A stretch of 27,422 nt of DNA, taken from IMG/VR virus record IMGVR_UViG_3300034407_001431, positions 1 to 27,422 of that record; one strand, given 5' to 3'. A program made the translations under genes and the position numbers. Source of the DNA: a virus. Numbering within the stretch: position 1 is the first letter of the stretch; each line of letters starts with the position of its first letter. Shown one piece after another: positions 5,085 through 26,005 of this stretch. The notes beneath the pieces are model-generated. The model searched no databases and was not told where the DNA came from. It was given only the letters and a program-made list of their open reading frames with translations.

Positions 5085-5102
5085 TTGAAATGGAACTATA
5101 TT

Positions 5103-5549: not shown

Positions 5550-7015
5550 ATCATGCTACCATGGGTTTACAATGTGACCCTGGTATTGCAGCAGAAATAA
5601 ATGAGTATTTCTCATTCTTTGTGCCTGGGTATAAATTTATGCCAGCATTTAAGAATAAGATATGGGACGGTAAGATTCGTCTCTATAACGCACGCACTGG
5701 TACACTACCTGGTGGGTTGTTTTATCATTTACTCAAATTCTGTGAGCAACGAGAGTACGAATTAGACCAACACGCTAGTGATTATGGTCCTCCAGAATCG
5801 GCAAATAAAGTTTTGCCAGAAGATATTATGGATTACGTCCGGAGTCTTAATTTACCATTTCCAATTAGAGATTATCAGTTTGATGCGGTATGTAACGCGA
5901 TTCATAAAAAGAAGGGGATATTGGTATCACCCACTGGCTCTGGTAAATCATTAATTATCTACACCTTGCTTCGTTGGTTCCTTGCCAATTCTGATAAAAG
6001 AGTCCTAGTTATTGTACCCACAACATCATTGGTTGAGCAGATGTATGGGGATTTTAATGACTATGCTACGAATGACTTGTTTGATTCCAAGAATGAAGTC
6101 CACAGAATTTACTCAGGTAGAGATAAGAATGCTGATGCAAGGGTTTATGTATCCACGTGGCAATCGATATATAAGTTTCCATTAGATTGGTTCTCACAAT
6201 TCGGCGCTGTATTTGGTGATGAGTGCCATGGGTTTAAATCCAAATCACTCACTACGATTATGGAAAAGTGTACCGAGGCAGAGTACCGATTTGGCACCAC
6301 TGGTACACTGGACGGTTCACTCACTCATGAATTGGTCTTACAAGGTCTCTTCGGCCGTGTGTTTAAGGTAACCACAACCCGTGCGTTGCAGGATAATGAT
6401 ACACTTGCTAAGTTGGCAATCACTCGCCTCGTATTAAATTACAGCAACACTACACGTGAGGCATGTAATGGATTAACGTATCAAGATGAGATTGATTTTG
6501 TCGTCACCAATGAGAAAAGAAATACACTAATAAGAAACTTGGCCGTGGACCAAAAGGGTAACACACTCGTGTTATTTCAGTATGTAGAGAAACATGGCAA
6601 GGTTTTATATGATATAATAAGAGCTAAGGCACACGAAGATAGAAAAGTCTTCTTTGTCTCTGGTCAGACGGAAACGGCAGATAGGGAAGCGATCCGAAAG
6701 ATTACGGAGAAACAAAGTGATGCAATTATTGTGGCATCCATGGGTACATTTTCTACTGGTATAAACATTAAGAACCTACACAATATTGTATTTGCATCTC
6801 CATCCAAGTCACAGATCAGGGTACTACAAAGTATTGGCCGTGGGTTGAGAAAAAGTGATGATGGTAGGGTTACAAAACTATTTGATATAACGGATGATTT
6901 ATCTATTAGAAACAAAAAGAACTTCTGTCTGTTACACTCAGGTGAACGGTTGAAGATGTATCAGAATGAAAATTTTGATTATAAAACATATGAGATAAAC
7001 ATTGATGGAGATTAA
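5522..7015 (+). CDS. uvsW: UvsW recombination/branch-migration helicase
   Basis: UvsW is a superfamily 2 DNA/RNA helicase that branch-migrates forks and Holliday junctions, unwinds R-loops and shifts T4 replication from origin- to recombination-dependent mode. The 497-residue protein (T4: 503) carries the N-terminal DNA-binding domain (FSFFVPGYKFMPAFKNKIWD, about 31-49, as in T4), a Q-motif-like RDYQFDAV (116-123), Walker A SPTGSGKS (136-143), motif Ia IVPTTSL, the DECH box (233-236), motif III-like GTTGTLDG, and C-terminal helicase motifs ASMGTFSTGINIKNL and QSIGRGLRK (motif VI). The start at 5522 aligns with the T4 N-terminus, so the 28-nt overlap with uvsY is real. Its last 11 nt overlap the next gene. 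Confidence 0.97.
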   Translation: MEKISIWKLNHATMGLQCDPGIAAEINEYFSFFVPGYKFMPAFKNKIWDGKIRLYNARTGTLPGGLFYHLLKFCEQREYELDQHASDYGPPESANKVLPEDIMDYVRSLNLPFPIRDYQFDAVCNAIHKKKGILVSPTGSGKSLIIYTLLRWFLANSDKRVLVIVPTTSLVEQMYGDFNDYATNDLFDSKNEVHRIYSGRDKNADARVYVSTWQSIYKFPLDWFSQFGAVFGDECHGFKSKSLTTIMEKCTEAEYRFGTTGTLDGSLTHELVLQGLFGRVFKVTTTRALQDNDTLAKLAITRLVLNYSNTTREACNGLTYQDEIDFVVTNEKRNTLIRNLAVDQKGNTLVLFQYVEKHGKVLYDIIRAKAHEDRKVFFVSGQTETADREAIRKITEKQSDAIIVASMGTFSTGINIKNLHNIVFASPSKSQIRVLQSIGRGLRKSDDGRVTKLFDITDDLSIRNKKNFCLLHSGERLKMYQNENFDYKTYEINIDGD

Positions 7016-7517
7016 AAATAATCATCTTATCCAGCACCATGAATGTGATTTTGATCTTGATAAGTTGCGTGCTGAAATAGAAGATATTTCTGTTTTTAAG
7101 AACTTTTATGTACCACACTCAAATATGCTCATAGAAGGTTGGTTTTACCATAAAGCAACTAAAGAGTATAGTGTTGGTATTGCCCATTATCTTGCTGATA
7201 TAACGAATACTGATATCCAGGAAGTCTCGAGTAGATTTTATATTCAAGAAAAAGGATATGCAATACCATTCCACCGTGACGTTGGTACTATGTGCTCACT
7301 TAATATTTTATTATCGGAAGCAAATGATCCAATATACTTTTATCAAAAAGGTGAAAAGACTCATCATTCATATAAGAGTGCTCTTATTAATGTATCAGAA
7401 CAACATAGTGTTCCAGCACCTATAGATGAACCTCGCTTATTGTTTAAGGTTAGTTTTTTTAGTAAATCATTCAAGGATATAGCAAGTGTTCTGCCAACTC
7501 AATTATCATATAGATAA
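7005..7517 (+). CDS. Small Fe(II)/2-oxoglutarate dioxygenase-like protein A
   Basis: The 170-residue product looks like a compact double-stranded beta-helix dioxygenase. The facial triad is readable as His90-x-Asp92 (in the segment AIPFHRDVGTMCSLNILL) and His134 (NVSEQHSVPAP), with Arg144 (DEPRLLFKVSF) ten residues later as the likely 2-oxoglutarate-binding Arg. This is the HxD...H...R pattern of the superfamily. The substrate cannot be told from sequence: protein hydroxylases, small-molecule hydroxylases and nucleobase oxygenases share it. The open frame begins with a TTG at 7002, but the ATG at 7005 is the better start. It overlaps uvsW by 11 nt and the next dioxygenase-like gene by 32 nt. 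Locally the DNA is more A+T-rich than the replication genes around it, consistent with later acquisition. Confidence 0.65.
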   Translation: MEIKNNHLIQHHECDFDLDKLRAEIEDISVFKNFYVPHSNMLIEGWFYHKATKEYSVGIAHYLADITNTDIQEVSSRFYIQEKGYAIPFHRDVGTMCSLNILLSEANDPIYFYQKGEKTHHSYKSALINVSEQHSVPAPIDEPRLLFKVSFFSKSFKDIASVLPTQLSYR

Positions 7518-8007
7518 AGAATTACATTGTAATATATTCTTTGATAATATTGATTTAGCACACCATCATAAAACACCATTCAGTGAATTTACTTTTTGGA
7601 AAAAATATTTTTATTTTGGCCCTGAGGTACAACAAATAGTAAATGATCTTAATCTGCAGGGATTGAATATAAAGCCACGCTATAGTTGGCAAGAGAGTAA
7701 CACATTACTTCCACCACATATAGATAAGAATAGAATCATAGGTATAAATATTAACTTAATGGATGAACCTGCTGTACTACATATCAATAGCGTGCCGTAT
7801 ACTTATGAATGTGCTCTTATAGATGTTGGGACACAATTGCATAGTGTAGAACCATTCCATAAAGATAGATTGGTTTTAAAATTAGCAATCCGCAACTCAT
7901 GGGAGGAGATTTGGAATAGATTAAATAGTATAGGTATGATAGGTAAACCATACGGTCCGTATAAATCTATTCTTTATAATAATATGAAAAAATTTGTGAG
8001 AGTTTAA
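7486..8007 (+). CDS. Small Fe(II)/2-oxoglutarate dioxygenase-like protein B
   Basis: This is a second member of the same apparent family, 173 residues, in tandem with the previous gene. The pattern is His78-x-Asp80 (LLPPHIDKNRIIGININL), His119 (DVGTQLHSVEPF) and Arg128 (KDRLVLKLAIRN), giving HxD-39-H-9-R spacing close to that of protein A (HxD-42-H-10-R). The segment between (EPAVLHINSVPYTYECALI) corresponds to protein A's DPIYFYQKGE...SALI. This supports a duplication followed by strong divergence. No ATG is available early in the frame. The GTG at 7486 is chosen because an AAGGA ribosome site lies about 9 nt upstream. The 32-nt overlap suggests coupled translation. Substrate unknown. Confidence 0.62.
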   Translation: MFCQLNYHIDKELHCNIFFDNIDLAHHHKTPFSEFTFWKKYFYFGPEVQQIVNDLNLQGLNIKPRYSWQESNTLLPPHIDKNRIIGININLMDEPAVLHINSVPYTYECALIDVGTQLHSVEPFHKDRLVLKLAIRNSWEEIWNRLNSIGMIGKPYGPYKSILYNNMKKFVRV

Positions 8008-14720: not shown

Positions 14721-15134
14721 ATGAAAATTGGACTTACTGCTTCAACCTTTGATTTACTCCACGCTGGTCATATTGCCATGCTTAGAGAAGCCAAGTCGAA
14801 ATGTGATTATCTAATCTGTGCGCTGCAAGTGGATCCAAGTGTTGATCGTACAGAAAAAAACGCCCCCGTTCAGAGTATTGTTGAGCGGCAAGCACAACTT
14901 GCTGCAGTTAAATATGTAGATGAGGTACTAGTATACTGTACAGAGACCGATTTACTTGATATAATAAACATGTACCCTGTTACTGTTAGAATTCTTGGCG
15001 AAGAGTATCGTCAGAAGGATTTTACTGGTAAAGATGAATGTCGCAACCGTGGCATTGAACTCTACTTTAATAAACGTGATCATAGGTTCTCATCCAGTGA
15101 TCTGAGAAAACGTGTGGCGCAAAAAGAATTATGA
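14721..15134 (+). CDS. Cytidylyltransferase-like nucleotidyltransferase
   Basis: The 137-residue protein is a complete HIGH-superfamily nucleotidyltransferase of the glycerol-3-phosphate cytidylyltransferase (TagD) type. The N-terminal TASTFDLLHAGHIAMLREAK carries the HxGH motif (His14-Ala-Gly-His17), the middle RQAQLAAVKYVDEVLVY matches the family's RxxxLxxhxyVDxVh block, and the C-terminal FSSSDLRKRV (about 123-132) is the ISSTxIR-like signature. It should transfer a nucleotidyl group, typically CMP, to a phosphorylated alcohol or sugar. The substrate is not evident. It lies within the clamp-loader cluster and overlaps gp62 by 4 nt (ATGA). No ribosome site is obvious before its ATG, which is preceded by ACTATATT. 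Confidence 0.82.
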   Translation: MKIGLTASTFDLLHAGHIAMLREAKSKCDYLICALQVDPSVDRTEKNAPVQSIVERQAQLAAVKYVDEVLVYCTETDLLDIINMYPVTVRILGEEYRQKDFTGKDECRNRGIELYFNKRDHRFSSSDLRKRVAQKEL

Positions 15135-15508
15135 ATCCATTTGAATATGTAAATGCTATTAACTATAGTAAAGAAAAATTAATTGTAGATGACTTAACCG
15201 AAAAGGCCTATAATGGCTATATGGTCAATAGGTCACTATCTTATTTTCCCGACACCGTCCTTGCTGCTAATGAAATGAATGTCAATCATCAACTTGACAA
15301 GAAAATGCAGTTTGACTTTCTTATAAATATTATTAGAAAACGAAAGCGCTTTTCAAAATGGGAAAAGAAAAAAGCTGACGGTGATGTGGATGTAGTCAAA
15401 GAGTATTATGGTTATAACGATTTAAAAGCTCGTCAAGTACTTGGTCTTCTATCACCTGAACAATTAGAACAATTATATAAAAAGGTGAACAAAGGTGGAA
15501 GAAAGTAA
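15131..15508 (+). CDS. 62: Clamp loader small subunit gp62
   Basis: This is the small subunit of the gp44/gp62 clamp loader. The 125-residue product is shorter than T4 gp62 (187), as is usual for the marine branch. Shared features are the YNGYMVNRSLSYFPDTV block (T4: KFMVENALSQFPEC), followed by NEMNVNHQLDKKMQFDFLIN and a basic RKRKRFSKWEKK (T4: RGKRYGKWAKL), then EYYGYNDLKARQVLGLL. It overlaps the nucleotidyltransferase gene by 4 nt and regA by 14 nt. The RegA ribosome site (AGGTGA) lies in its last codons, so translation of the three is coupled. Confidence 0.87.
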   Translation: MNPFEYVNAINYSKEKLIVDDLTEKAYNGYMVNRSLSYFPDTVLAANEMNVNHQLDKKMQFDFLINIIRKRKRFSKWEKKKADGDVDVVKEYYGYNDLKARQVLGLLSPEQLEQLYKKVNKGGRK

Positions 15509-15911
15509 CTTGATTGAATGGACACCCAACTCAATGTTGGAAGTTGCCTTAAATGAACCGGACGATTTTTTAAAGATCCGGGAAACCCTAACTCGCATTG
15601 GTGTAGCATCTCGTAAGGATAGAAAACTATATCAGTCATGTCACATACTGCATAAGCAGGGTAGATATTTTATAGTTCATTTTAAAGAACTATTTCTACT
15701 TGATGGCAAAAAATCCAATTTAGAGGAAAATGATATTGCTCGTAGGAATACAATCGCCACATTGATGAGCGACTGGGGCCTGTTAACTATTGAGCAAGTA
15801 AATCAGGCGCAACCTATTGCACCTCTCCGACAAATTAAAATCATTCCTTATAAGGAAAAGAACGAATGGGAATTGTGTCCAAAATATAACATTGGAAACA
15901 AGCCTCATTAA
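15495..15911 (+). CDS. regA: Translational repressor RegA
   Basis: RegA binds around start codons of early mRNAs, including its own and clamp-loader messages in T4, and represses translation. From the internal ATG at 15534 the sequence MLEVALNEPDDFLKIRETLT parallels the T4 N-terminus. Next come RIGVASRKDRKLYQSCHILHK and RYFIVHFKELFLLDG, then MSDWGLL and a C-terminal ELCPKYNIGN that matches T4's KLVPKYTIGN. Two starts are possible. The GTG at 15495 has a good AGGTGA ribosome site 7 nt upstream and gives 138 residues. The ATG at 15534 gives 125 residues (T4: 122) but lacks a ribosome site. I list the longer form. Confidence 0.94.
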   Translation: MEESNLIEWTPNSMLEVALNEPDDFLKIRETLTRIGVASRKDRKLYQSCHILHKQGRYFIVHFKELFLLDGKKSNLEENDIARRNTIATLMSDWGLLTIEQVNQAQPIAPLRQIKIIPYKEKNEWELCPKYNIGNKPH

Positions 15912-16008
15912 AGAACCCACCTTAGGGCCGTTGTAATGCAAACGGTAAAAAAGCATTCGAACAATTGGACTGGCACTCGTTAGTTGTCCCTGTATAAAGT
16001 AAGCAGGA

Positions 16009-16016
16009 TATAAATA
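16009..16016 (+). promoter_or_regulatory. T4-type late promoter box TATAAATA
   Basis: Exact late box in the 168-nt gap between regA and hsp20. The predicted start at about 16022 leaves a leader of about 58 nt with a strong TTAGGAGG ribosome site before the ATG at 16080. The same gap contains a CCGTT/AACGG hairpin (15930-15947) with no T-run after it. Confidence 0.78.
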
Positions 16017-16079
16017 GAATTGGATGCCGAATACTCGGGTCTATAACTACAACCTTGCTTTTATTAGGAGGTCATAATC

Positions 16080-16565
16080 ATGACACATTTTAAGTTACCA
16101 CGCTCAGCGTTTATTGGCTTTGATAACATCTTTGATGAGTTGGATAAATTATCCAATCAATCAACGGGTGATAATTATCCGCCACATAATATCCTTAAAC
16201 TTACCGATAACAAATATGCAATTGAACTTGCTGTTGTAGGGTTCAAAGAGAGTGATCTCGAGCTCAATCAACAGGATGGTATTTTGCATGTCACAGGTGA
16301 TAAGTCCAGTAAATATTTACCGACTGATTACTTGCATCGGGGAATTTCAGGAAGATCTTTCAAGCGTTCCTTTCGACTGTCTGAACACGTAGAAGTAAAA
16401 GGAGCTAATCTAAGGGACGGACTGCTTGTCATCGAACTAGAAAGAGTCATCCCAGACGAAAAGCGTCCACGTACGATTCCTATTAATCAATTCGTGGAGA
16501 ACACACATGACACAAATCAAAAAAATCCTCAGTTTCTTTCAGAAAATGGGACTCAGCATGCTTGA
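16080..16565 (+). CDS. hsp20: Small heat-shock protein (Hsp20/IbpA-like)
   Basis: This is an alpha-crystallin-domain chaperone of 161 residues. The order is typical: an N-terminal FxxIFDELDKL segment (about 12-25), YPPHNILKLTDNKYAIELAV starting the beta-sandwich, the strand GILHVTGDK, the dimerisation-loop region with YLHRGISGRSFKRSFRL (the usual RGIAxRxFxRxFxL motif), and ANLRDGLLVIELER near the end of the domain (GLL motif). It holds unfolding proteins in a refoldable state. Similar genes are common in T4-like marine phages. The late box and strong ribosome site suggest late, high expression, perhaps to protect virion assembly. The C-terminal tail overlaps the next gene by 59 nt. Confidence 0.93.
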   Translation: MTHFKLPRSAFIGFDNIFDELDKLSNQSTGDNYPPHNILKLTDNKYAIELAVVGFKESDLELNQQDGILHVTGDKSSKYLPTDYLHRGISGRSFKRSFRLSEHVEVKGANLRDGLLVIELERVIPDEKRPRTIPINQFVENTHDTNQKNPQFLSENGTQHA

Positions 16566-16689
16566 CAGTATGATTGAAGCCCGCCAACGACAGGTCGAAG
16601 CCTATTTGGCCCGCTCTGTTGACTTGGCTGACTTGGAGAGACGACAGAGAGAAATTCAAAAAGCCGGTGTCGGCCAATTGAAGTATTAA
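16507..16689 (+). CDS. DUF3563-like small protein, overlapping hsp20
   Basis: A 60-residue protein whose frame overlaps the last 59 nt of hsp20. A GTGGAGAA ribosome site about 8 nt upstream of the ATG supports it. The segment EAYLARSVDLADLERRQREI (31-50) closely resembles the conserved core of DUF3563, a short cytoplasmic protein family common in proteobacteria (pattern YLAxAxDLxDLExRxRxh). The N-terminal part KKILSFFQKMG is amphipathic. Function is unknown in the family as well. Since such proteins occur mainly in proteobacterial genomes, it may be of host origin and hints at the host group. The resemblance is by eye. Confidence 0.7.
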   Translation: MTQIKKILSFFQKMGLSMLDSMIEARQRQVEAYLARSVDLADLERRQREIQKAGVGQLKY

Positions 16690-16691
16690 TA

Positions 16692-16751
16692 TATAATAAT
16701 ATGAGTTGAGGAGCATCTCATACAAAACAAAAGCTCCACCATTCACTCAAC
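16692..16751 (+). promoter_or_regulatory. Possible weak promoter and structured leader before 16779 gene
   Basis: TATAAT at 16692-16697 without a recognisable -35, followed by an inverted repeat that can form a long stem: GTTGA (16705-16709) with TCAAC (16747-16751), and GGAGC (16710-16714) with GCTCC (16733-16737). The ribosome site CAGGAGAA lies downstream of the stem, so the structure may affect translation or RNA stability rather than terminate transcription. Confidence 0.35.
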
Positions 16752-16778
16752 ACAACACACACATACAGGAGAACTAAT

Positions 16779-16994
16779 ATGTTCACACCCAACTTTTACA
16801 TCGATCAGTTTCAAGCAACAAAGAAAATTGTTGCAGATCAAATCTTCAAAGATCAACCTGAGTTACAAGAAGTAGCAGTTAAGTTTATTGACACACAAAC
16901 AGCGTTTGCCAAGATGCTTGTCGATAACACCGTTACCGTTAACAAATTATTTTGGGATAAGGCAACTGCTTTGTCACCTACCAAAGTTAAATAA
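16779..16994 (+). CDS. Small helical, phasin-like protein 1
   Basis: A 71-residue, almost all-helical protein without Cys or Gly-rich turns. Its pattern (FYIDQFQATKKIVADQIF..., VAVKFIDTQTAFAKMLVDNT, NKLFWDKATAL) resembles the amphipathic helices of phasins and related small helical proteins. I would not assign a function. It has a CAGGAGAA ribosome site and a structured leader. Its stop codon overlaps an ATG of the next gene's frame (TAATG), and the neighbour is similarly small and helical, so the pair may act together. Both belong to the late-type hsp20 block. Confidence 0.6.
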   Translation: MFTPNFYIDQFQATKKIVADQIFKDQPELQEVAVKFIDTQTAFAKMLVDNTVTVNKLFWDKATALSPTKVK

Positions 16995-17005
16995 TGGAGA
17001 ATATT

Positions 17006-17227
17006 ATGAGCAATAAAAACCCCTTTGAAATTCGTGCAGAGATGCTCCAAATGGCTAAAGACTATATGGACCAACAATGGCATATGAACGTGGATTTTAC
17101 AAAACAGTTGTTTGAAAAGAATATGAAAACAGTTGGTGAAATGGAAGCTGCGTTAAAGCCTTATTCCACAGAAGAGTTAATGAAGAAAGCATCAGAGATG
17201 TATTCCTTCGTCTCTAAGAAGGATTAA
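17006..17227 (+). CDS. Small helical, phasin-like protein 2
   Basis: A 73-residue, highly helical protein. The frame is open from an ATG at 16994, but the ATG at 17006 has the TGGAG ribosome site correctly placed. The N-terminal NPFEIRAEMLQMAKDYMDQQ and the following VDFTKQLFEKNMKTVGEMEA form long amphipathic helices, and PYSTEELMKKASEMYSFVSK closes it. The NPFEIRxExLxMAKDYhxxQ opening looks like a recurring small protein of T4-like aquatic phages, with a loose similarity to phasins. No function is shown. It is the last gene before a strong terminator. Confidence 0.62.
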   Translation: MSNKNPFEIRAEMLQMAKDYMDQQWHMNVDFTKQLFEKNMKTVGEMEAALKPYSTEELMKKASEMYSFVSKKD

Positions 17228-17231
17228 GAAC

Positions 17232-17257
17232 AAAAAAAGGGCCTTCGGGCCCTATTT
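17232..17257 (+). terminator. Intrinsic terminator with UUCG loop
   Basis: A run of seven A, then GGGCC (17239-17243), loop TTCG, GGCCC (17248-17252) and TATTT. It has the same C(UUCG)G tetraloop as the gp23 terminator. The U tract is interrupted. It separates the hsp20 block from the promoter at 17255, whose -35 lies within its tail. Confidence 0.82.
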
Positions 17258-17283
17258 ACATTGTCTCAGTTTTGTGATATAAT
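17255..17283 (+). promoter_or_regulatory. Sigma70-like promoter
   Basis: TTTACA (17255-17260), 17-nt spacer, TATAAT (17278-17283) with TGTGA immediately before. It drives the small gene at 17309 (leader with TATGGAG). The spacer shares the stretch TTGTCTCAGTT with the promoter at 22740. Confidence 0.85.
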
Positions 17284-17308
17284 GTACTATTAAATTATGG
17301 AGTGAAAA

Positions 17309-17593
17309 ATGTCAGATATTCAAATCGTTCGTCTAACCTCAGGCGAAGAACTCATTGCAGATGTCACCATACAGACAGACGGATACCTTCTATCCGATGT
17401 TGCAATCCTAATCCCAACCCAACAAAATCAACTAGGCCTTGCCCCATTCATGGCATATGGAGAACCTAAGGATGGTATCTTCTTTAAGAATGAGCATATC
17501 ATGTTTCTTATAGAACCCGTAGACGGTCTTCGTCAACAATATCAAACTATGTTTGGAAAAGTAATCACACCTCCTACTAGTATTATTTCGTGA
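17309..17593 (+). CDS. Small protein, paralogue of 8011 gene (Sm-like-looking)
   Basis: A 94-residue protein that opens IQIVRLTSGEELIADVTI, then LGLAPFMAYGE and NEHIMFLIEPVDGLRQQYQT. These three blocks occur in the same order in the longer product at 8011-8397. The compact beta-rich first half is reminiscent of Sm-fold proteins, without proof. It has its own strong promoter and ends about 50 nt before gp43, which has a second promoter, so it stands as a separately expressed unit upstream of the polymerase. Function unknown. Confidence 0.62.
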   Translation: MSDIQIVRLTSGEELIADVTIQTDGYLLSDVAILIPTQQNQLGLAPFMAYGEPKDGIFFKNEHIMFLIEPVDGLRQQYQTMFGKVITPPTSIIS

Positions 17594-17622
17594 TATACAG
17601 CTCTTGTATTTTGTGTTATAAT
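17594..17622 (+). promoter_or_regulatory. Sigma70-like promoter for DNA polymerase gp43
   Basis: TATACA (17594-17599), 17-nt spacer, TATAAT (17617-17622) with TGT extension. The leader contains ATAAGGAGTA before the ATG at 17643. Confidence 0.82.
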
Positions 17623-17642
17623 ATTAGAAAATAAGGAGTAAG

Positions 17643-20150
17643 ATGTCTTTTTACACGTCAGTTTTTCGTTATGGTAACAATATCCTATTCCGTGGATATG
17701 ATGACCAAGGCCGTCGTTACCAGCGTAAAGAACCATTCCAACCCACGTACTATGTGCCCTCACAGAAAGACGTAGGTTGGCGTGGTCTCGATGGTGCTAT
17801 CATTGGTCCCATCAAACTTGAGAGTATGCGTGAGGGCAAGGAATGGATGGAGAAGTACAAGGATGTTTCCGGCTTCAACATCTATGGCAACCCTAATCAA
17901 ATTCACCAGTTCATCTCAGAGAAATTTCCAGGCGATATTAAATTTGACCGTGATCGGATTAACGTAACCACAATCGATATTGAGACTGCATACGATGATG
18001 GGTTTCCACACCCCAGCAAGGCAGAGAACGAAGTATTGGCTATTACTATTAAAAACAATATTGATGGCATGTATTACGTTTGGGGTTATGGTGATTACGA
18101 CACAGAGAAGGCGCTCATCAAACCAGTGCGGTACACTAAGTGCTCATCTGAGGCAGAGTTGTTCAAATCATTCCTCACACATTGGCAAGCGCCACAGTTC
18201 TCACCTGATGTGATTACTGGTTGGAATGCACGATTCTTTGATATGCCTTATCTAGTAAACCGAGTGACTAAGATCCTTGGCGAAGATTGGGCCAAGAAAT
18301 TCTCACCGTGGGGTATGCTGAATTATCGGCAAGTGACTCGGATGAACAAAGTCGATGATACCTATAACATCGAGGGTATTCAGACACTGGATTACTTAGA
18401 GCTCTTTCAGAAGTTTGGTTACTCCTACGGCAATCAAGAGTCCTACAAACTAAATCACATCGCCTATGTTGTACTTGGTGATACTAAGCTTTCGTTCGAA
18501 GAATCAGGTTCTCTTAAAAATCTCTACAAGGATGATTACCAAAAGTACATTGACTATAACATGAAGGACGTGGAACTTGTAGATCGGCTTGAGGATAAAA
18601 TGGGTCTTATTACCCTTGCCATGACCATGGCGTATAAGGGTGGTGTGAACTACCAGGACACATTTGGTGTTACGGCGATTTGGGAATCCATTATCTACCG
18701 TAAGCTCAAGTCACAAAACGTCATGCCATCTCTTGGCGATGGTAATCACCATAAGACTGCCTTTGCTGGTGGTTATGTCAAGGACCCCAAAGTCGGACTT
18801 CACAACTGGGTTGTATCCTTTGACTTGAACTCACTCTATCCAAACATTATTGTGCAGAACAATATGTCACCCGAGACAGTGACTGATAAGTTCGTTAAAT
18901 CTGGTGTTGAATATTATTTGGATGGCAACAAGGCAGATGTTGAGGGCTATGCCGCTGCGGCGAATGGTTCCACATACCGTAAGGACATTGATGGTGTTGT
19001 TCCTGGTATCATTATAGATTACTACGACGAACGGTCGGCGACCAAAAAGGCCATGCTTGCCTCACAACAGGCGTATGAGAAGAATAAGACCTATGAACTT
19101 GAGAAGGAAATCAACCGACTCGAGAATACTCAAATGGCTCTTAAAATTCTACTCAACTCACTTTATGGTGCTCTCGGTAATGCTTATTTCCGTTACTTTG
19201 ATATCCGTCTTGCCGAGGGTGTTACCCTAACTGGTCAGTTGGCTATTCAATGGGCCGAAAAAGCCATGAATGCCTCAATGAATAAGATACTCAAGACCAA
19301 GGACAAAGACTATGTAATTGCTATTGATACGGACTCACTCTACGTTGACTTTGGTCCTCTTATCGACACAATGGTTTGGAAACCTAATGACGGTGTGGAT
19401 AAAAAAGTTGCCTTCCTCAACAAGGTCTGCAGTGAACACTTTGAGCCAGTGCTTGAAAAAGCATATCAAGAACTCTTTGTGAACATGAATGGCCACAAGA
19501 ACCGGATGGTGATGAAACGTGAAGTGATTGCTGACCGTGGCATTTGGACTGCCAAGAAACGCTATATACTTAATGTGCATAACAGTGAGGGTGTGCAGTA
19601 CGCTGAACCGAAACTCAAGATCATGGGCATTGAGGCAATTAAATCCTCTACGCCAGAAGTGGTCCGAGCCAAGTTTAAGGAAGTGTTTAAAATTATTATC
19701 AGTGGCGATGAGTTGGCGACACGTGATTTTATCGTTAAATTTAAAAATGATTTTAAACAACTGCCGCCCGAGCAGGTTGCCTTTCCACGTGGTGTGAGCA
19801 ATATTACCGACTGGTCGGATAGAAAGACTATCTTCAAGAAAGGTACACCCATTCACGTCCGTGGCTCATTACTATATAATCATTATATTAAGGATGCTAG
19901 ATTAAATGACCGGTACGAACTTATTCAAAATGGTTCCAAGGTAAAATTTGCATACCTAAAAATGCCAAATACTATCAAGCAGAATATTATCTCATTCCCA
20001 GATGAGTTGCCAAAAGAACTTGGTCTGCATAAATTTATTGATTATGAAACCCAATTCGGTAAAACATTTATCGAACCGCTACGATTTATTCTAGATGCAG
20101 TAGGATGGTCGGTAGAGGAACAAGCAACATTAGAGGATTTTTTCGCATGA
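17643..20150 (+). CDS. 43: DNA polymerase gp43 (family B)
   Basis: This is the replicative DNA polymerase with proofreading exonuclease, 835 residues (T4: 898). Exonuclease motifs: Exo[13 protein letters not shown] (Asp112, Glu114), Exo[14 protein letters not shown] (193-204) and Exo[15 protein letters not shown] (Tyr305, Asp309). Polymerase motifs: [13 protein letters not shown] (Asp394), [14 protein letters not shown] (501-513) and [12 protein letters not shown] (Asp562, Asp564). The C-terminal LEDFFA is a likely gp45-clamp-binding tail, comparable to the hydrophobic end of T4 gp43. The gene is intact, with no intron or intein interruption. Its stop overlaps the start of the MazG-like gene (ATGA). 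Confidence 0.98.
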
Positions 20151-20524
20151 CGAATGCAAACAAAGTAAAATTATTCATGGAATCTTTCGGACAGGAAGTA
20201 AAATCCAAACCAGAGTTTCCATCGGATGATACCGTAAAATTACGGATTGAACTTATTTCAGAAGAGTTACAAGAGTTGGTAGATGCTTGTAATGCCAATG
20301 ATATTATTGAGGTAGCAGATGCCCTTACGGATATTCTTTACGTCACCTATGGCGCTGCACACTCGTTTGGTATTCCCATTGACGAATGTTTTAAAGAAGT
20401 GCAGAGATCTAATATGAGTAAACTTGGTGAAGATGGTAAACCCATCTATCGTGAAGATGGTAAAGTCATGAAAGGTCCCAATTACTCAGTGCCTAACTTA
20501 AAAAATGTTTTACAAACTGCCTAA
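20147..20524 (+). CDS. MazG-like NTP pyrophosphohydrolase
   Basis: A 125-residue all-alpha NTP pyrophosphatase-like protein. The metal-binding pattern is visible as SEELQEL (Glu39, Glu40, Glu43) and [17 protein letters not shown] (Glu55, Asp58), the EExxE...ExxD signature. The later [19 protein letters not shown] segment occurs in the phage MazG-like/phosphoribosyl-ATP-pyrophosphatase-like branch. Such enzymes hydrolyse (d)NTPs to monophosphates and may shape the dNTP pool; the substrate cannot be told here. The open frame extends back to 20105, but the ATG at 20147 overlapping the gp43 stop has an AGAGGA ribosome site. The promoter for the glycosyltransferase begins inside its 3' end. Confidence 0.85.
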
Positions 20525-20537
20525 TTTGTGTTATAAT
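20509..20537 (+). promoter_or_regulatory. Sigma70-like promoter for the glycosyltransferase
   Basis: TTTACA (20509-20514), 17-nt spacer ending TGTGT, TATAAT (20532-20537). The -10 ends seven bases before the ATG at 20545, so the message should start at or next to the start codon (leaderless). Confidence 0.85.
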
Positions 20538-20544
20538 ATACAAC

Positions 20545-21495
20545 ATGCATAATCCAAAATACCCAATTTATATTATCTCTAAAGGTCGATGGGAATCTCG
20601 TATGACACAGCGTACGATGGAAGACATCGGCGTACCGTATCGTATTGTGATCGAGGACGCGGAATACGACAAGTATGCCGAACACGTGCCTAAGGAAAAG
20701 ATCCTTGTTCTGCCGAATGGTTTCCGTGAGAATCCAAAATACGCATATAAGGATGAGCGCACCGGTTTGTTAGGTGGTTCCATTCCCGTTCGTAACTTCG
20801 TGTGGGAACACTCCATCGAAGAAGGGCATAAGAAACATTGGGTCTTGGATGATAACATGCGGCATGTCTATCGGATGAATCGTAACCTCAAGACTCGTAT
20901 GACCAGTGGCGCGGCATTCCGTATTTGTGAGGACTTTACCGACCGATATGAAAATGTAAAACTATCTGGTATGAACTATGCATTCTTCGCTCCCGCATCA
21001 GTTCGTAAACCACCTTACTATACAAACACTCGTATTTACTCTTGCATTCTTATTGATAACTCTATCACCCATCGCTGGCGTGGTAAGTACAATGAGGACA
21101 CAGACTTGAGTTTGCGTGTACTTAAAGACGGCGACTGCTCTATGTTGTTTAATTGTTTCCTCGTCGGCAAGGCAGCAACCATGACAATGAAAGGCGGCAA
21201 TACGGAAGAAGTGTACAACGTTGGTCAAACGGGTGACCGACATGCACGAGGTGGCGAAAACTTTGATAACCGTAAATCATTTGTTGAATCACTTATTGAA
21301 CAACATCCCGAGCATGTAAAACTTGCATTCAAATGGGGTCGTTGGCACCACGATGTGAATTATAGTGTATTCACTCAAAAACCAGTTATGAAACCAGGTC
21401 TAAATATTACTAAAGGTACCGACGAATACGGTATGGTACTCAAGGCAATTTCACCTGAACAAAACACACCTGATGGAGAAGAATATGGCGACTAA
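20545..21495 (+). CDS. TET-associated-type glycosyltransferase (TAGT/GREB1-like GT)
   Basis: The 316-residue protein matches by eye the glycosyltransferase family described as associated with TET/JBP oxygenases in phages (also the C-terminal GREB1 domain), thought to add sugars to hydroxylated bases in DNA. Visible blocks are PIYIISKGRW (7-16), DIGVPYRIVIED and YDKYAEHVP, KILVLPNG, GSIPVRNFVWEHSIEEGH, HWVLDDNMRHVYRMNRN with an Asp-Asp pair (102-103) typical of GT-A metal sites, and YNEDTDLSLRVLKDG (182-196) resembling the catalytic acidic motif. No ribosome site precedes the ATG, and the first conserved strand begins within ten residues, so the start must be here. It overlaps the next gene by 11 nt. 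DNA as acceptor is an inference from the family. Confidence 0.8.
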   Translation: MHNPKYPIYIISKGRWESRMTQRTMEDIGVPYRIVIEDAEYDKYAEHVPKEKILVLPNGFRENPKYAYKDERTGLLGGSIPVRNFVWEHSIEEGHKKHWVLDDNMRHVYRMNRNLKTRMTSGAAFRICEDFTDRYENVKLSGMNYAFFAPASVRKPPYYTNTRIYSCILIDNSITHRWRGKYNEDTDLSLRVLKDGDCSMLFNCFLVGKAATMTMKGGNTEEVYNVGQTGDRHARGGENFDNRKSFVESLIEQHPEHVKLAFKWGRWHHDVNYSVFTQKPVMKPGLNITKGTDEYGMVLKAISPEQNTPDGEEYGD

Positions 21496-21772
21496 TAAAT
21501 TAAATGTAGATACAGCATCTAATAACTTGTTTATCCTTGCTGGCGAAGAGGATAAGCGCACACCTTATGATTGGGATGGCATGCCTGAGTTCGTTCAAGA
21601 AGATGTTGAAGCATACGCAAAGATCACGGTACGTATTCGTGATGAAGCAGACCTGAAAAAGTTTGCAGAAATTATGAATCAACCTAGCATTACTACCAAA
21701 ACAAAAGCAGTTTGGTATCCACAGTTGGACAGAAATCGCAACTCTTTGCTTCGTTGGATGGACGAAGAATAA
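21485..21772 (+). CDS. Small conserved phage protein, companion of the glycosyltransferase
   Basis: A 95-residue protein with a GGAG ribosome site about 6 nt before the ATG at 21485; the open frame goes back to 21473. The central segment WDGMPEFVQEDVEAYAKITV, followed by IRDEADLKKFAEIM and TKTKAVWYPQLDR, is a pattern I have seen in small phage proteins and in domains attached to ParB/Srx-like or DNA-methylase proteins. I cannot name the family or its activity. The 11-nt overlap with the TAGT-type gene indicates co-translation, so a role in the same DNA-modification process is plausible but unproven. Confidence 0.7.
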   Translation: MATNKLNVDTASNNLFILAGEEDKRTPYDWDGMPEFVQEDVEAYAKITVRIRDEADLKKFAEIMNQPSITTKTKAVWYPQLDRNRNSLLRWMDEE

Positions 21773-21777
21773 AGAAT

Positions 21778-21788
21778 TGTGATATAAT
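21778..21788 (+). promoter_or_regulatory. Extended -10 promoter
   Basis: TGTGATATAAT (-10 TATAAT at 21783-21788) without a good -35 at the 17-nt distance. It lies 8 bases before the ATG at 21797, so the leader would be 0-3 nt. Confidence 0.65.
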
Positions 21789-21796
21789 ACTATATT

Positions 21797-22726
21797 ATGA
21801 TATCACTTACATCATTCAAAAGTCTCTTTGATAATAAAACGGATAAGAGACTCGATTTTAAATCCTTCCCGGATTTTGAAAAGGCTTTGTACGCACTCTC
21901 CAAAAAAGAGTGTGAGACAAAGAAAAAAGCATTCCTTATTTCCCCTGCCACTTTTATTGAAGGCACAACGCGTGCGAATAGGAATGTAATTGAATGGGGT
22001 GGGTGGGCAGCGGTTGACGTGGACGACCACGAATTTAAAGGAGACTTAAAAAATGAGCTTTATTCTAGGTTTGGCAAGTGGTATTATATTTGTTATAGTA
22101 CTGCAAGCAGCACTATTGCACGGCCGAAGTTCAGACTCATCTTTCCTCTTACGAGCGCTGTACCTGAGGCAAAAATCCGCCACTTCTGGTTCGCACTCAA
22201 CTCTGAGCTTGGATCAATCGGAGATAAACAGACTAAAGATCTCAGCAGAATGTATTACATCCCTGCGACGTATGCTGGCGCTAACAACTTTATCTTTACT
22301 AATCACGGTGACCCTATTGATGTTAGTACTCTTACCGCCAAATGGCCATATAACGATAGGGCCAATAACTCAAATAGTTTCATCGACCGATTACCTGATG
22401 AATGGCAACGACAAATTATCGAGCACAGAAAATCGCAACTAGAAAATGTCAATGTCAAATGGAGTGGTTATCGCGATTGTCCATTCTGGCCTAAGAAACT
22501 TGCATCAGAGTACCAGGTTATCAACAGCACTGGTTGGTACCATAAGATGTATCAGATCATGGTTGCCGTTGCAGGTAATGCCATTAAAAATGAATACCCC
22601 ATTACTGTGCAAGAGATTACACAGATGTGTAGGCAATTTGATGCCGATACGGGTAATTGGTACGCTACTCGACCTCTGGATAAGGAAGCAGATAGGGCAC
22701 TAGAGTTTGTATACAAGACAATGTAA
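21797..22726 (+). CDS. AEP/PrimPol-like primase-related protein
   Basis: The 309-residue protein looks like a replication primase-related protein of the archaeo-eukaryotic (AEP) type found in phages and plasmids. GGWAAVDVDDHEF (68-80) gives the metal-binding DxD (Asp74, Asp76). YICYSTASSTIARPKFRLIF (97-116) matches the 'Y-S-T-x-S...P-R-x-R-h-h-hP' strand that follows it in such primases, and TKDLSRMYYIPATY (146-159) matches the later conserved block. The C-terminal third (KLASEYQ...NSTGWYHKMYQIMVAVAG) is helical and resembles the C-terminal region of phage primase-like proteins. There is no helicase domain. The usual T4 primase gp61 is not in this window, so whether this replaces it is open. 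It has a near-leaderless start with no ribosome site. Confidence 0.55.
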   Translation: MISLTSFKSLFDNKTDKRLDFKSFPDFEKALYALSKKECETKKKAFLISPATFIEGTTRANRNVIEWGGWAAVDVDDHEFKGDLKNELYSRFGKWYYICYSTASSTIARPKFRLIFPLTSAVPEAKIRHFWFALNSELGSIGDKQTKDLSRMYYIPATYAGANNFIFTNHGDPIDVSTLTAKWPYNDRANNSNSFIDRLPDEWQRQIIEHRKSQLENVNVKWSGYRDCPFWPKKLASEYQVINSTGWYHKMYQIMVAVAGNAIKNEYPITVQEITQMCRQFDADTGNWYATRPLDKEADRALEFVYKTM

Positions 22727-22739
22727 TACTTTTGATATA

Positions 22740-22768
22740 TTTACTTTTGTCTCAGTTCGTGGTATAAT
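22740..22768 (+). promoter_or_regulatory. Sigma70-like promoter for the GIY-YIG gene
   Basis: TTTACT (22740-22745), 17-nt spacer, TATAAT (22763-22768) with GTGG before it. The predicted start near 22774-22776 excludes or truncates the ATG at 22775 and favours the ATG at 22796. Confidence 0.82.
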
Positions 22769-22795
22769 AACCATATGAAATCTTTTGGAACTACT

Positions 22796-23494
22796 ATGAG
22801 TGAACTAGGCAGTGGGGCATTCTTTGAATCCCTCGGTCAGTATGTTTACGGCTATCGCAAGGAAGATTCTTTTACCTGGGACTATATTGGCAAGGGTAAT
22901 GGAAATCGTGCCGTTCAGCATATAAAGACCAAGGGTTATAATGCCAAGAATCTTTATATTATCGCCAAGAACCTGGAGCGATTTGCCGATAAAGGTGATG
23001 CAGAATCTTTCCTATTGGAATCTTTTTTAATTACAACAACCAAACCAACTGATAATCGCGTTGCTGGTCACTATGAGGAGTGCTTTACTATGGCAAAATG
23101 GTCTGAACTATTTAATGAATTTCAAGCATCAATGTATGACAACTTTGAGGCACTACCTACGTGGTATGTCGAAAATTATGAAAAGATTAAAGGTAAAGTT
23201 GGCGTTGTGACTATTAAGTCCGATGTGTTTTACTTGGAATCTAAAACGCTAAATAAAGTACAATTCTCATGGTATACGAATACTGATGGTAGTACTAAGT
23301 CGGTCAAGTTCCAAGTTTGGAATACGGATGAAAATGAGTCAGAGGTAAAACGCCAACAGATTTACTCATTCTGTGAGTCCATGGGAATTGATCATGACGA
23401 AGTTGAGTTAACAGGTACTCGCCAGAGTTATGAGATCAAAAAAGAACTTGATGTAAATCAGGTTATGGAAATTTTTATTAATTTTGTTAGTTAA
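22796..23494 (+). CDS. GIY-YIG nuclease (LEM-3/COG3680-like)
   Basis: A 232-residue protein with an N-terminal GIY-YIG nuclease domain of the LEM-3/ANKLE1 (COG3680) subtype: QYVYGYRKED (the 'GIY' strand as VYGY), DYIGKGNGNRAVQHI (the 'YIG' as YIGKG with the conserved Arg), and ESFLLESFLI carrying the acidic metal-binding residue. The C-terminal 140 residues (about 90-232) show no domain I recognise. They may bind DNA or set specificity. The frame is open from an ATG at 22775, but the promoter's predicted start coincides with that codon, whereas the ATG at 22796 has a TTTTGGAA ribosome site. It is free-standing between two metabolic genes, as homing or competition nucleases often are. Confidence 0.72.
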   Translation: MSELGSGAFFESLGQYVYGYRKEDSFTWDYIGKGNGNRAVQHIKTKGYNAKNLYIIAKNLERFADKGDAESFLLESFLITTTKPTDNRVAGHYEECFTMAKWSELFNEFQASMYDNFEALPTWYVENYEKIKGKVGVVTIKSDVFYLESKTLNKVQFSWYTNTDGSTKSVKFQVWNTDENESEVKRQQIYSFCESMGIDHDEVELTGTRQSYEIKKELDVNQVMEIFINFVS

Positions 23495-23506
23495 GGAAAC
23501 ACAATC

Positions 23507-24319
23507 ATGGAATTAAAAATGGCAATCATCGGTCACGGCTTCGTCGGCAAGGCAGTTGACTATGGATTCACACACCCTCAGGTTCATAAGACAATTATTG
23601 ATCCCGTCTACGGTACATCGGTAAAAGATATTCCAACGGGCACTGACCTTATCTTTATTGCGGTTCCCACACCCATGGAAAATTTCACCATTTTCCGCAA
23701 CGTGATGCAAGAGTTGGAAGAGCGTGGATTTATCGGCAGTTCGATTGTGGCAATTAAATCCACCGTACGGCCGGATGTATTAAAAGAATTCCGTAAACCA
23801 AGTGTGATTTACAATCCTGAGTTCTTGACAGAGAAATTTGCATCCGAAGACTTTATCAATCCACCAATGCATGTGTTTGGTGGTGAACCCCACGCGTGTG
23901 ATGTCTTGGAAAGTTACTACACAAAATACAGTCTCTGTTCACCAGCTCCTGCATTCAAGGTCGGTATTGAGGAGGCATCCATTATTAAGTACTCTATTAA
24001 CTCATTCCTTGCAACCAAGGTAATGTTCTTTAATCAAATTTATCAGGTCTGCCAAGATCAAGAATTGGACTTCAACCGTATCGTAAATGCCATCGGCACT
24101 GATCCACGTATTGGACGTAGTCACACTAAGGTGCCAGGGTTCGATGCTAAACTTGGCTTTGGTGGTGCATGTTTCCCCAAGGATACCAAGGCGTTCATCG
24201 ACTACAGCGATCGCCTGAGTGTTCTACGCGCCGTTGTTGATGCGAACAATAAAGTACGTGCAGATTATGAGTTGGATGACCGTGAAAAAGTTCAAGGTGT
24301 TGTTTACAAGATCGCATAA
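23507..24319 (+). CDS. UDP-glucose 6-dehydrogenase family protein, short form
   Basis: This is a member of the UDP-glucose/GDP-mannose dehydrogenase family, which oxidises UDP-glucose to UDP-glucuronate with two NAD+. The N-terminal Rossmann motif is IIGHGFVGKA (7-16). Next come IAVPTPM, the YNPEFLTEKF motif (102-111), KYSINSFLATKVMFFNQIYQ (161-180, with the catalytic Lys and Asn) and FGGACFPKDTKAF (218-230) with the catalytic Cys222. At 270 residues it lacks most of the C-terminal nucleotide-sugar-binding domain of the usual 390-450-residue enzymes, so activity on UDP-glucose is uncertain, although the active-site residues are intact. It has an AAGGAA ribosome site. With the epimerase at 25049 it would form a two-step UDP-uronate pathway. 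Confidence 0.8.
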   Translation: MELKMAIIGHGFVGKAVDYGFTHPQVHKTIIDPVYGTSVKDIPTGTDLIFIAVPTPMENFTIFRNVMQELEERGFIGSSIVAIKSTVRPDVLKEFRKPSVIYNPEFLTEKFASEDFINPPMHVFGGEPHACDVLESYYTKYSLCSPAPAFKVGIEEASIIKYSINSFLATKVMFFNQIYQVCQDQELDFNRIVNAIGTDPRIGRSHTKVPGFDAKLGFGGACFPKDTKAFIDYSDRLSVLRAVVDANNKVRADYELDDREKVQGVVYKIA

Positions 24320-24331
24320 TCCATATATAAT
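24303..24331 (+). promoter_or_regulatory. Sigma70-like promoter
   Basis: TTTACA (24303-24308), 17-nt spacer, TATAAT (24326-24331). It starts inside the 3' end of the dehydrogenase gene and serves the small gene at 24362 (AAGGATAGG ribosome region) plus dCMP deaminase. It lacks the TG extension seen in the others. Confidence 0.75.
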
Positions 24332-24361
24332 GTGTATTAACACACACAAGGATAGGAAATT

Positions 24362-24589
24362 ATGTCCGATACTAAAAAACGACTTAATGATGTAACACCT
24401 GCTGAGTGGGACAAGGCCCATGCAAATTGGTCTGATAAATCTAAACCCGCACACTTTGAAAAATTGGTAACAACCGATACCGACAATCATTCAGATCACT
24501 ACTATGATACTGATAGAAATAAATCACTAAATTATGAAAAAGCAGACACCTCCTGGGACAATTGGAAACCATCAAGAACGATTAGTTGA
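24362..24589 (+). CDS. Small hydrophilic protein before dCMP deaminase
   Basis: A 75-residue, very polar protein, unrecognised. It is rich in Asp, Lys, Asn, His and Trp (for example WDKAHANWSD and DNHSDHYYDT) and has no hydrophobic core of note, so it is likely disordered or a short binding peptide. A promoter and an AAGGATAGGAAA ribosome site precede it, which supports translation. The last 56 nt overlap the start of dCMP deaminase in another frame, and dCMP deaminase has no ribosome site of its own, so this gene may serve as a translational lead for the enzyme. Confidence 0.55.
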   Translation: MSDTKKRLNDVTPAEWDKAHANWSDKSKPAHFEKLVTTDTDNHSDHYYDTDRNKSLNYEKADTSWDNWKPSRTIS

Positions 24590-25043
24590 ATCTCATCCCG
24601 TTGGGTATTGGGACCAAGTATTTCTACGACTTGCTAAGGAAGTAGCATCTTGGTCCAAAGACCCATCAACCAAGGTTGGTGCGGTCGCCGTTGGTCCGAA
24701 ACGCAATGTTTTGGCACAAGGTTATAATGGGTTTCCGAGAGGCATTTTTGATTATGCCGAAAGATATAATGATAAACCTACTAAATATAAGTACGTCGTT
24801 CATGCGGAGATGAATGTAATCTATAACGCTACATATAATGGTGTTTCCCTTGATGATGCATCACTTTACGTCTACGGTCTACCCCCATGCTCTGAGTGCG
24901 CCAAGGGTATTATCCAAGTCGGCATTAAAGAAATCATCACAGAGATACAAGGTATACCTAAAAAATGGCAAGATTCATGGGACTTTTCCAAGAGCATGTT
25001 TGACGAAGCAGGTATTATAGTACGAACAATTGAAAGGCAGTAA
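24534..25043 (+). CDS. cd: dCMP deaminase
   Basis: This zinc-dependent deoxycytidylate deaminase converts dCMP to dUMP, feeding dTMP (or a modified pyrimidine) synthesis. It has 169 residues. The motifs are complete: KDPSTKVGAVAV, GYNGFPRG (allosteric/substrate region), HAEMNVI (His90, Glu92; proton shuttle and zinc ligand) and LPPCSECAKGII (Cys119, Cys122; zinc ligands). The first 20 residues precede the conserved core. The ATG at 24534 is the only ATG before the core, without a ribosome site, and overlaps the preceding gene by 56 nt. The SDR gene follows after 5 nt. Confidence 0.93.
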   Translation: MKKQTPPGTIGNHQERLVESHPVGYWDQVFLRLAKEVASWSKDPSTKVGAVAVGPKRNVLAQGYNGFPRGIFDYAERYNDKPTKYKYVVHAEMNVIYNATYNGVSLDDASLYVYGLPPCSECAKGIIQVGIKEIITEIQGIPKKWQDSWDFSKSMFDEAGIIVRTIERQ

Positions 25044-25048
25044 AAAAA

Positions 25049-26005
25049 ATGGCAAAAATTCTAATCACCGGTGGTGCAGGTTTCATTGCGTATCACCTAG
25101 CACAAAAACTACAAGCAGAAGGGCATCGGGTATGCGGCTTTGATAACTATAATGATTATTATGATGTTAATCTAAAGTACGCTCGTGCGCGTTCACTGGC
25201 AACAAGAGGCATTGAGGTCATCACCGGTGATTTGGTAAATCTGATTGATGCAGAGTTTGCTGTTACTACCTTTGCACCAGATGTGGTAATACACTTGGGT
25301 GCATACGCTGGTGTTCGGCATTCACTGGATCATCCAAAATTATACGTTGACAACAACATTAATGGTACACATAACTTAATTGAAGTTTGTGAAAAACGTG
25401 GCGTTAATAAAATCATTTATGCATCAACATCATGTGTAATGGCTGGCAATGAACTACCTTGGAATGAGAGTGAAAAGTTAGGTTATCAACTCAATGCGTA
25501 TGGTTACTCCAAGGCAACGAACGAGGCACAGTTTATGGCTAGTAAAATACCCGTAACCATTGGCCTTCGATTCTTTACTGTCTACGGTCCTTGGGGTCGT
25601 CCTGACATGGCACTGTTTACATTTACCAAATCCATTATTGACGGCACTCCTATTAAGTTGTTTAACTACGGTGATATGATCCGTGACTTTACTTACGTTG
25701 ATGATATTGTCCAGGGTGTTAATATTGTTATTAATAGAGCAATTAATACGACACAGAACCTAAAAGAAGTGTATAATATAGGTTACGGCGAACAGGTTCA
25801 ACTTTTGGACTTTGTGAGTGAAATTGAAAAGAACGTTGGTAAGAAGGCAATTAGAGAATTGGTTGAGAAACACCCAGCCGATACACAGGCTACTTGGTCG
25901 GATACAACGAAACTTCAAGCACTTGGTTATAAACCAACAACATCAGTGAAGGTTGGTGTTGCTAAATTTGTTGAATGGTACAAAGAGTACTATGAAATTG
26001 GGTAA
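25049..26005 (+). CDS. NAD-dependent sugar epimerase, UDP-glucuronate 4-epimerase-like
   Basis: An extended short-chain dehydrogenase of 318 residues. It has an NAD-binding GGAGFIA (8-14; the last Gly of GxxGxxG is Ala), DNYNDYYDVNLKYARAR (32-48), IHLGAYAGVRHSLDHP (81-96), an ASTSC active-site strand (125-129), YGYSK (Tyr151, Lys155; catalytic pair), FFTVYGPWGRPDMALF (175-190) and GDMIRDFTYVDD. The NDYYDxxLK, AGVRxSxxxP and VYGPWGRPDMAxF blocks are those of UDP-glucuronate 4-epimerases (CapI/LpsL type), which make UDP-galacturonate. Related GalE or dTDP-glucose dehydratase activities are possible but less likely. It lies downstream of the UDP-glucose dehydrogenase-like gene, which would provide its substrate. 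Confidence 0.87.
   Translation: MAKILITGGAGFIAYHLAQKLQAEGHRVCGFDNYNDYYDVNLKYARARSLATRGIEVITGDLVNLIDAEFAVTTFAPDVVIHLGAYAGVRHSLDHPKLYVDNNINGTHNLIEVCEKRGVNKIIYASTSCVMAGNELPWNESEKLGYQLNAYGYSKATNEAQFMASKIPVTIGLRFFTVYGPWGRPDMALFTFTKSIIDGTPIKLFNYGDMIRDFTYVDDIVQGVNIVINRAINTTQNLKEVYNIGYGEQVQLLDFVSEIEKNVGKKAIRELVEKHPADTQATWSDTTKLQALGYKPTTSVKVGVAKFVEWYKEYYEIG

Follow-up and report, generated by a model that had tools for sequence, protein, structure and literature searches.

TAGT proteins are glycosyltransferases of the family PF20691, and their name, which refers to an association with TET/JBP oxygenases, reportedly originates with Iyer et al. 2013. The role of the family in DNA modification is already known, and the TAGT of phage T6 (ggt) acts on a base derived from hydroxymethylcytosine (hmC) (PMC13216743). 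Solitary TAGTs are recognized as an open question; they were counted in 288 of 753 phage genomes (PMC13216743). The TAGT of Aeromonas phage Aeh1 has been listed as presumably modifying an "unknown base" (PMC8056088), and gene 42 is unlisted for both Aeh1 and phage 65 (PMC2993671). The DNA of Bacillus phage SP-15 carries glucuronolactone phosphate and glucose on dihydroxypentyluracil and is a precedent for a uronate on phage DNA (PMC5977210). In this study, we analyzed a TAGT gene and a small companion gene, h99, in a linear virus contig of 27,422 bases (positions 1 to 27,422 of IMG/VR record IMGVR_UViG_3300034407_001431; hereafter, the window), which is probably a fragment of a marine T4-like phage genome.

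With a probability of roughly 0.52, and on the basis of sequence comparisons, we propose that TAGT and h99 are the two subunits of a DNA-glycosylating enzyme, encoded by an alternative allele to the T4-type pair of dCMP hydroxymethylase (gp42) and DNA alpha-glucosyltransferase (AGT) and sharing with it a supply of UDP-uronates. The genes concerned lie in the hotspot between gp43 and uvsX:

20545-21495, + strand: TAGT (PF20691) glycosyltransferase with a predicted GT-A fold, 316 aa (profile match, catalytic residues, model)
21485-21772, + strand: h99, the TAGT partner domain as a stand-alone gene, 95 aa, overlapping TAGT by 11 nt
23507-24319, + strand: short UDP-glucose dehydrogenase-like protein (UGD), 270 aa, with PF00984 and PF03721 and without PF03720
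24534-25043, + strand: dCMP deaminase (PF00383, E = 1.3e-21), within the hotspot
25049-26005, + strand: UDP-glucuronate 4-epimerase-like short-chain dehydrogenase/reductase (SDR), by PF01370 and nearest solved sequences

An earlier note on this DNA had combined these five genes into a candidate DNA-glycosylation module. The list of open reading frames (ORFs) confirms the position of each, including the companion start at 21485, which we accept because MATN... is a conserved start; GGAG lies upstream of it. The proposed TAGT identity also held in a profile search, in which 20545-21495 matched PF20691 over profile positions 1-205 of 205 (E = 2.9e-40; 138.8 bits, cut-off 27.5) and PHROG 842 (E = 7e-39). 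Invariant residues include D102-D103 and E184-D185, and the acidic motifs DDN and ED are invariant. The best PDB matches of an AlphaFold2 model (pLDDT 87.4) are GT-A-type enzymes, with modest TM-scores of 0.34-0.45, and the modeled GT-A fold with its conserved acidic motifs agrees with membership in the family. The Tet_JBP domain (PF12851), detected in the positive control, Nonlabens phage P12024L, was found in 0 of 19 contigs of the window's group and in 0 of 24 other TAGT contigs; its absence lowers the label "TET-associated" and leaves the assignment to the TAGT sequence family intact. Second TAGT paralogues without an h99 gene of their own occur in the same hotspot in three relatives (L072, 13473-14312; L068, 11261-12112; L023, 5152-6156) and are 28-39% identical to the window TAGT.

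In cultured TAGTs, the h99 profile matches the N-terminal region (POP12, 5e-14; Ah1, 2e-12; PTm1, 1e-8; Kuja, 3e-6). Among 50,697 phage records searched, all 16 matches were accompanied by TAGT, as were 79 of 80 h99 loci in one scan and 80 of 80 in viral contigs scanned with the upstream-type domain. Of 42 bacterial-genome contigs carrying a TAGT of this class, 37 had the domain, either fused to TAGT or encoded nearby, and it was present in all 39 loci spanning TAGT to uvsX. Apart from TAGT, h99 was found nowhere in the phages, plasmids or viral contigs searched save at one contig end, and therefore TAGT and h99 look like the two parts of a single enzyme. In unrelated phages, the h99-type domain is fused to this TAGT subfamily or lies just upstream of it, often behind ParB_N, which was scored in 27 of 43 long h99 partners; a 673-aa protein of L226 unites ParB_N, h99 and TAGT, and terminase genes lie downstream in many of these loci. 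The window's group is atypical in that the domain is detached and relocated downstream of TAGT, with the two genes overlapping in every pair measured. Both the co-occurrence and the fused and split architectures support the suggestion that the companion is a functional partner, and it is very likely, judging from sequence, that TAGT and h99 constitute an obligate two-part enzyme. The window genes are under purifying selection, and the constraint on TAGT and its companion (dN/dS of 0.050 and 0.061 against L005) is nearly equal to that on gp43 (0.035); the values for SDR and UGD are 0.108 and 0.149.

A third conserved gene beside TAGT was sought in prophages, and no widely shared gene besides the h99 partner was found. 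Small genes located immediately after the fused TAGTs of Ah1 (L002, 8903-9103) and POP12 (L003, 8852-9031) resemble additional diverged copies of h99. The predicted structure of a 468-aa protein (L260, 7437-8843) has two beta-alpha-beta units ahead of TAGT, at residues 45-170, which suggests a duplicated partner domain in fused forms.

The window UGD matches PF00984 (E = 1.5e-20) and part of PF03721 (E = 2.6e-10) and has the active-site motif GGACFPKD with the catalytic Cys. The SDR (PF01370, E = 3e-45) carries its YxxxK and RPDMA motifs as YGYSK and YGPWGRPDMALF; its nearest solved sequences are 5u4q (3e-77) and 6zl6 (5e-46), the latter of which we take to be a UDP-glucuronate (UDP-GlcA) 4-epimerase, and by sequence it resembles UDP-GlcA 4-epimerases. 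UGD was present in 38 and SDR in all of the 39 loci spanning TAGT to uvsX, which ties the expected capacity for converting UDP-Glc to UDP-GlcA and UDP-galacturonate (UDP-GalA) to TAGT, although the window UGD is short of PF03720, a domain present in the 395-aa UGD form of L037. Two non-orthologous classes of UGD (about 274 and 395 aa) and two types of SDR occur, each filling the same role. In L032 and L034, a TAGT-h99-SDR-UGD cassette of overlapping genes is sited elsewhere, beside a topoisomerase gene and between RNase H and ligase genes, and SDR genes also adjoin ParB_N-h99-TAGT in unrelated phages. The hotspots of some relatives additionally contain a GT4-type glycosyltransferase, a methyltransferase-like gene or a second TAGT, consistent with further sugar elaboration. 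The alternative SDR type was considered as a UDP-xylose synthase: that of L032 is nearest to UXS1 (4e-28), yet has GSSTKF where TSEVYG is expected, which makes it at most a candidate for that activity. Between the window and its closest relatives, L004 and L005, UGD is much more diverged (66%) than the neighboring genes, which suggests recombination within the hotspot.

When the window SDR was used as a query, relatives were found that have the same hotspot, UGD and SDR without TAGT. Eight of these SDR loci contain gp42 (5e-66 to 8e-73 against T6 gp42, with the Asp-type FGYKNDYAW motif), and three further loci contain another gene of the thymidylate synthase (TS) family. TAGT was present in 33 SDR loci, gp42 in 8, and both in none. 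At the level of whole contigs, PF00303, the family of TS, gp42 and dUMP-hydroxymethylase (positive control, T6 gp42), was found in 0 of 19 contigs with TAGT and in 10 of 11 without it (Fisher p about 4e-7, uncorrected for relatedness). The exchange can be delimited in a close relative with gp42, G043, which aligns to window positions 15220-20146, through gp43, and picks up again at 21815:

20147-21814, no strand assigned: segment replaced in G043, with flanks 86.3% (upstream) and 79.3% (downstream) identical

Between the aligned flanks, G043 lacks TAGT and h99 and has a different NTP pyrophosphohydrolase (NTP-PPase); its gp42 follows UGD. Two gp42 contigs, G047 and G053, also encode a T4-type AGT (PF11440, E about 1e-55), which is absent from the window, nine TAGT-containing contigs of its group and G048; in loci L414 and L359, a T4-type AGT occurs with gp42, UGD and SDR. 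L361 has a C5-cytosine methylase. In phage C48C1, a Dam-type methyltransferase occupies the TAGT slot, and T6 carries both gene 42 and a TAGT of its own between gp43 and uvsX. Since gp42/AGT, a Dam-type methyltransferase or TAGT is found in the same region, the hotspot appears to swap DNA-modification alleles over a common sugar supply.

These alleles, the ParB_N linkage and the terminase-proximal cassettes support the DNA-modification role that had been suggested, and together with the family they make DNA the probable acceptor. If the sugar instead went to a protein of the phage or the host, for instance one from around the packaging or head genes, this would fit the lack of a detected base-activating enzyme, the frequent location of cassettes beside terminase and portal genes, and best structural neighbors that are protein-modifying GT-A enzymes; given the DNA precedent in the family, the linkage to ParB_N and the occurrence of gp42/AGT or a DNA methyltransferase as replacing alleles, we regard a protein target as improbable. 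The dCMP deaminase, which the earlier note had included in the module, was found in only 2 of the 39 TAGT-to-uvsX loci versus all 8 gp42 loci; we rejected it as a module component, as the counts show that it tracks gp42-type relatives and not TAGT.

Several hotspots without TAGT contain further genes. In the gp42-type locus L355 (2831-6351), four genes follow gp42 (PHROG 13881, a weak match to pyridoxal phosphate enzymes, and two unknowns) and may represent another hmC hypermodification pathway. A TS-family protein of L376 (480-1262; also L377 and L380) has an unusual GDWMIGVPSDAV motif replacing the usual LGLPFN and is possibly a different pyrimidine-modifying enzyme. In L405, which has neither TAGT nor gp42, two hotspot genes (719-1831 and 4122-5177) encode a DruA-like protein (PF14236) and a GT4-type glycosyltransferase.

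The sugar-nucleotide genes could instead serve host-surface or other glycans and merely share the hotspot, while TAGT and h99 modify DNA with host UDP-glucose. C48C1 and the gp42-type relatives, with UGD and SDR and no TAGT, are in line with this alternative, as are the TAGT prophage cassettes, which mostly lack the two genes, and T6 ggt, which uses host UDP-glucose. Yet the 38-39 of 39 co-occurrence, the joint movement of the cassette in L032 and L034, the SDR genes beside TAGT in unrelated phages and the replacement of TAGT by gp42/AGT alongside the same sugar genes make separate functions rather unlikely.

We also searched for an enzyme that could hydroxylate the acceptor base. PF00303 was found in none of 18 TAGT-containing contigs of the window's group, among them contigs of 177, 121 and 93 kb, nor in any of 24 further TAGT contigs (28-96 kb). 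ThyX, for thymidylate, was present in all five long TAGT contigs; as a variant hydroxymethylase it was dismissed, its motif (RHR...QEFSQRY) being ordinary in all five. In the cultured TAGT phages Ah1 and henriette, the PF00303 proteins carry the TS-type Asn and look like plain thymidylate synthases. Within the window, tandem overlapping ORFs at 7002-7517 and 7486-8007 show HxD...H...R patterns as in 2-oxoglutarate/Fe(II) oxygenases. They were set aside as hydroxylase candidates: neither has a Pfam or PHROG match, the second has no phage match, and they cannot account for the group because no homologue occurs in the long TAGT contigs.

Thus the module is likely to be independent of gp42 and TET/JBP in the window's clade, and the earlier suggestion that the phage decorates a hydroxymethylated pyrimidine was not supported: PF00303 and Tet_JBP are absent from all TAGT-containing environmental contigs searched, and gp42 occurs only in relatives without TAGT. 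The note had named the lack of a pyrimidine hydroxymethylase or TET/JBP gene as grounds for refutation, and on those grounds the idea is probably refuted for the group, the window itself being only a 27-kb fragment. In one version, a hydroxymethylase or TET/JBP enzyme encoded elsewhere in the genome would supply the base and TAGT would add a uronic acid to it. The activity of T6 TAGT on an hmC-derived base is compatible with this (PMC13216743), and the sugar genes shared with gp42-type relatives make a uronate on hmC plausible in those phages. The absence of both families from TAGT contigs of up to 177 kb, the mutual exclusion of TAGT and gp42, and the plain TS genes of Ah1 and henriette leave it a low probability for the window's group.

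Under the two-subunit DNA-glycosylation model, TAGT (20545) and h99 (21485) would form one GT-A glycosyltransferase, with h99 probably positioning the enzyme on its acceptor. UGD and SDR would make UDP-GlcA and UDP-GalA, the likely donors in this scheme, and sugar transfer to phage DNA would replace the gp42-based route. The use of a uronate as the donor is somewhat less probable than not, and we propose it tentatively; an acidic sugar on phage DNA is not unprecedented, as SP-15 illustrates (PMC5977210). Because no TS-family hydroxymethylase or TET/JBP enzyme appears to be used, unlike in T6, the acceptor would be either a base activated by an enzyme outside the known families or a canonical base. 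In its most specific form, which we consider doubtful, TAGT and h99 would put a phage-made uronic acid directly on a DNA base with no prior TS-family or TET/JBP hydroxylation; the sugar could sit on an exocyclic amine, for instance, or a new enzyme could activate the base. The product would be acidic, sugar-modified DNA from a cassette swapped against gp42/AGT-type genes.

Several points weigh against the model. No acceptor-making enzyme was found in the TAGT contigs searched, and the counts behind the exclusion of TAGT and gp42 are phylogenetically non-independent. The activity of the window UGD is uncertain because its C-terminal UDP-binding domain, PF03720, is absent in the profile search. 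UGD and SDR are kept without TAGT in C48C1 and in gp42-type relatives, and therefore the sugar genes are not exclusive to TAGT; from TAGT prophage cassettes they are mostly missing. Finally, T6 ggt is the sole TAGT type that has been tested; it is very distantly related, has no h99 and uses glucosyl-hmC as its substrate (PMC13216743).

In the literature searched, which excluded the founding TAGT paper, we found no earlier account of an obligate partner domain, of its separation from TAGT or of allelic exchange between TAGT and gp42. The partner, the absence of known hydroxylases and the exchange make the question of solitary TAGTs testable, namely, which acceptor is used and whether the sugar is a uronic acid. 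The data suggest an alternative sugar coating of phage DNA at the spot where relatives carry T4-type cytosine-hydroxymethylating, and sometimes glucosylating, genes. The window and G043 form a natural near-isogenic pair in which DNA-modification alleles can be compared against restriction, CRISPR and base-targeting glycosylases.

The remainder of the window has a T4-type gene order: gp20, 21, 22, 23, 19, uvsY, uvsW, gp55, 47, 46, 45, 44, 62, regA, hsp20, gp43, the module and uvsX. These names derive in part from profile matches and in part from sequence and synteny with annotated relatives. The nearest named gp43 is that of C48C1 (Kyanoviridae; 53.6%), followed by those of cyanophages. Two further genes may be relevant:

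20105-20524, + strand: PRA-PH/MazG-type NTP pyrophosphohydrolase, directly upstream of TAGT
14721-15134, + strand: HldE-type nucleotidyltransferase-like protein (CTP_transf_like)

The first is swapped along with TAGT for a different NTP-PPase in gp42-type relatives, and its role is uncertain. The second lies within the hotspot in 28 of 39 relatives and is a possible additional sugar-nucleotide gene. A small ORF (16507-16689) overlapping the end of hsp20 matches PF12086 (DUF3563; E = 1e-9). The ORF at 22775-23494 has weak GIY-YIG-like similarity and differs among relatives (54% in the otherwise far closer L004), and may be a homing-type element in the hotspot.

Among described systems, CmoX/CmoY of Synechococcus phage S-B43, which yields 5-carboxymethylcytosine, is comparable as a cyanophage DNA modification whose enzymes are associated with ParB_N and which needs no hydroxymethyl handle (PMC12783734); it differs in having a carboxymethyl handle with an amide ligase and no glycosyltransferase. 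SP-15 encodes a UDP-glucose dehydrogenase, matched by the window UGD (E = 1e-15), and a dCMP deaminase (PMC5977210), but it has a hydroxymethyl-dUMP synthase and a teichuronic-acid-like gene cluster, its sugar is linked via phosphate, and no TAGT is described. In close relatives that share the UGD and SDR (L414, L359), the hotspot holds the T4 pathway of gp42 and AGT (PF11440) for hmC glucosylation; T4 AGT has a GT-B fold versus the GT-A fold predicted for TAGT, and gp42 and AGT are absent from the TAGT contigs tested.

The beta-glucosyl-HMC alpha-glucosyltransferase (ggt) of T2 and T6 is, like the window protein, a PF20691 TAGT by name, and in T6 it lies in the same gp43-uvsX hotspot (PMC13216743, PMC13390438). 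The likeness to the window TAGT is very distant and at the profile level only (E about 7e-5). T6 has no h99, has gp42 adjacent, and transfers glucose from host UDP-glucose onto already glucosylated hmC, whereas the phages of the window's group have h99 and their own UGD and SDR but lack gp42; neither the gp42-derived hmC core of the T6 type (PF00303, 0 of 19 TAGT contigs) nor its companion T4-type alpha-glucosyltransferase (PF11440) was found. The Aeh1ORF087c-type TAGTs of the large Aeromonas phages Aeh1, 65 and Ah1 are among the nearest cultured relatives (about 39-42% identity). Unlike the window, Ah1 has no UGD or SDR annotated beside TAGT. These proteins share the same partner domain, which in them is fused N-terminally to TAGT and in the window is split off and encoded downstream.

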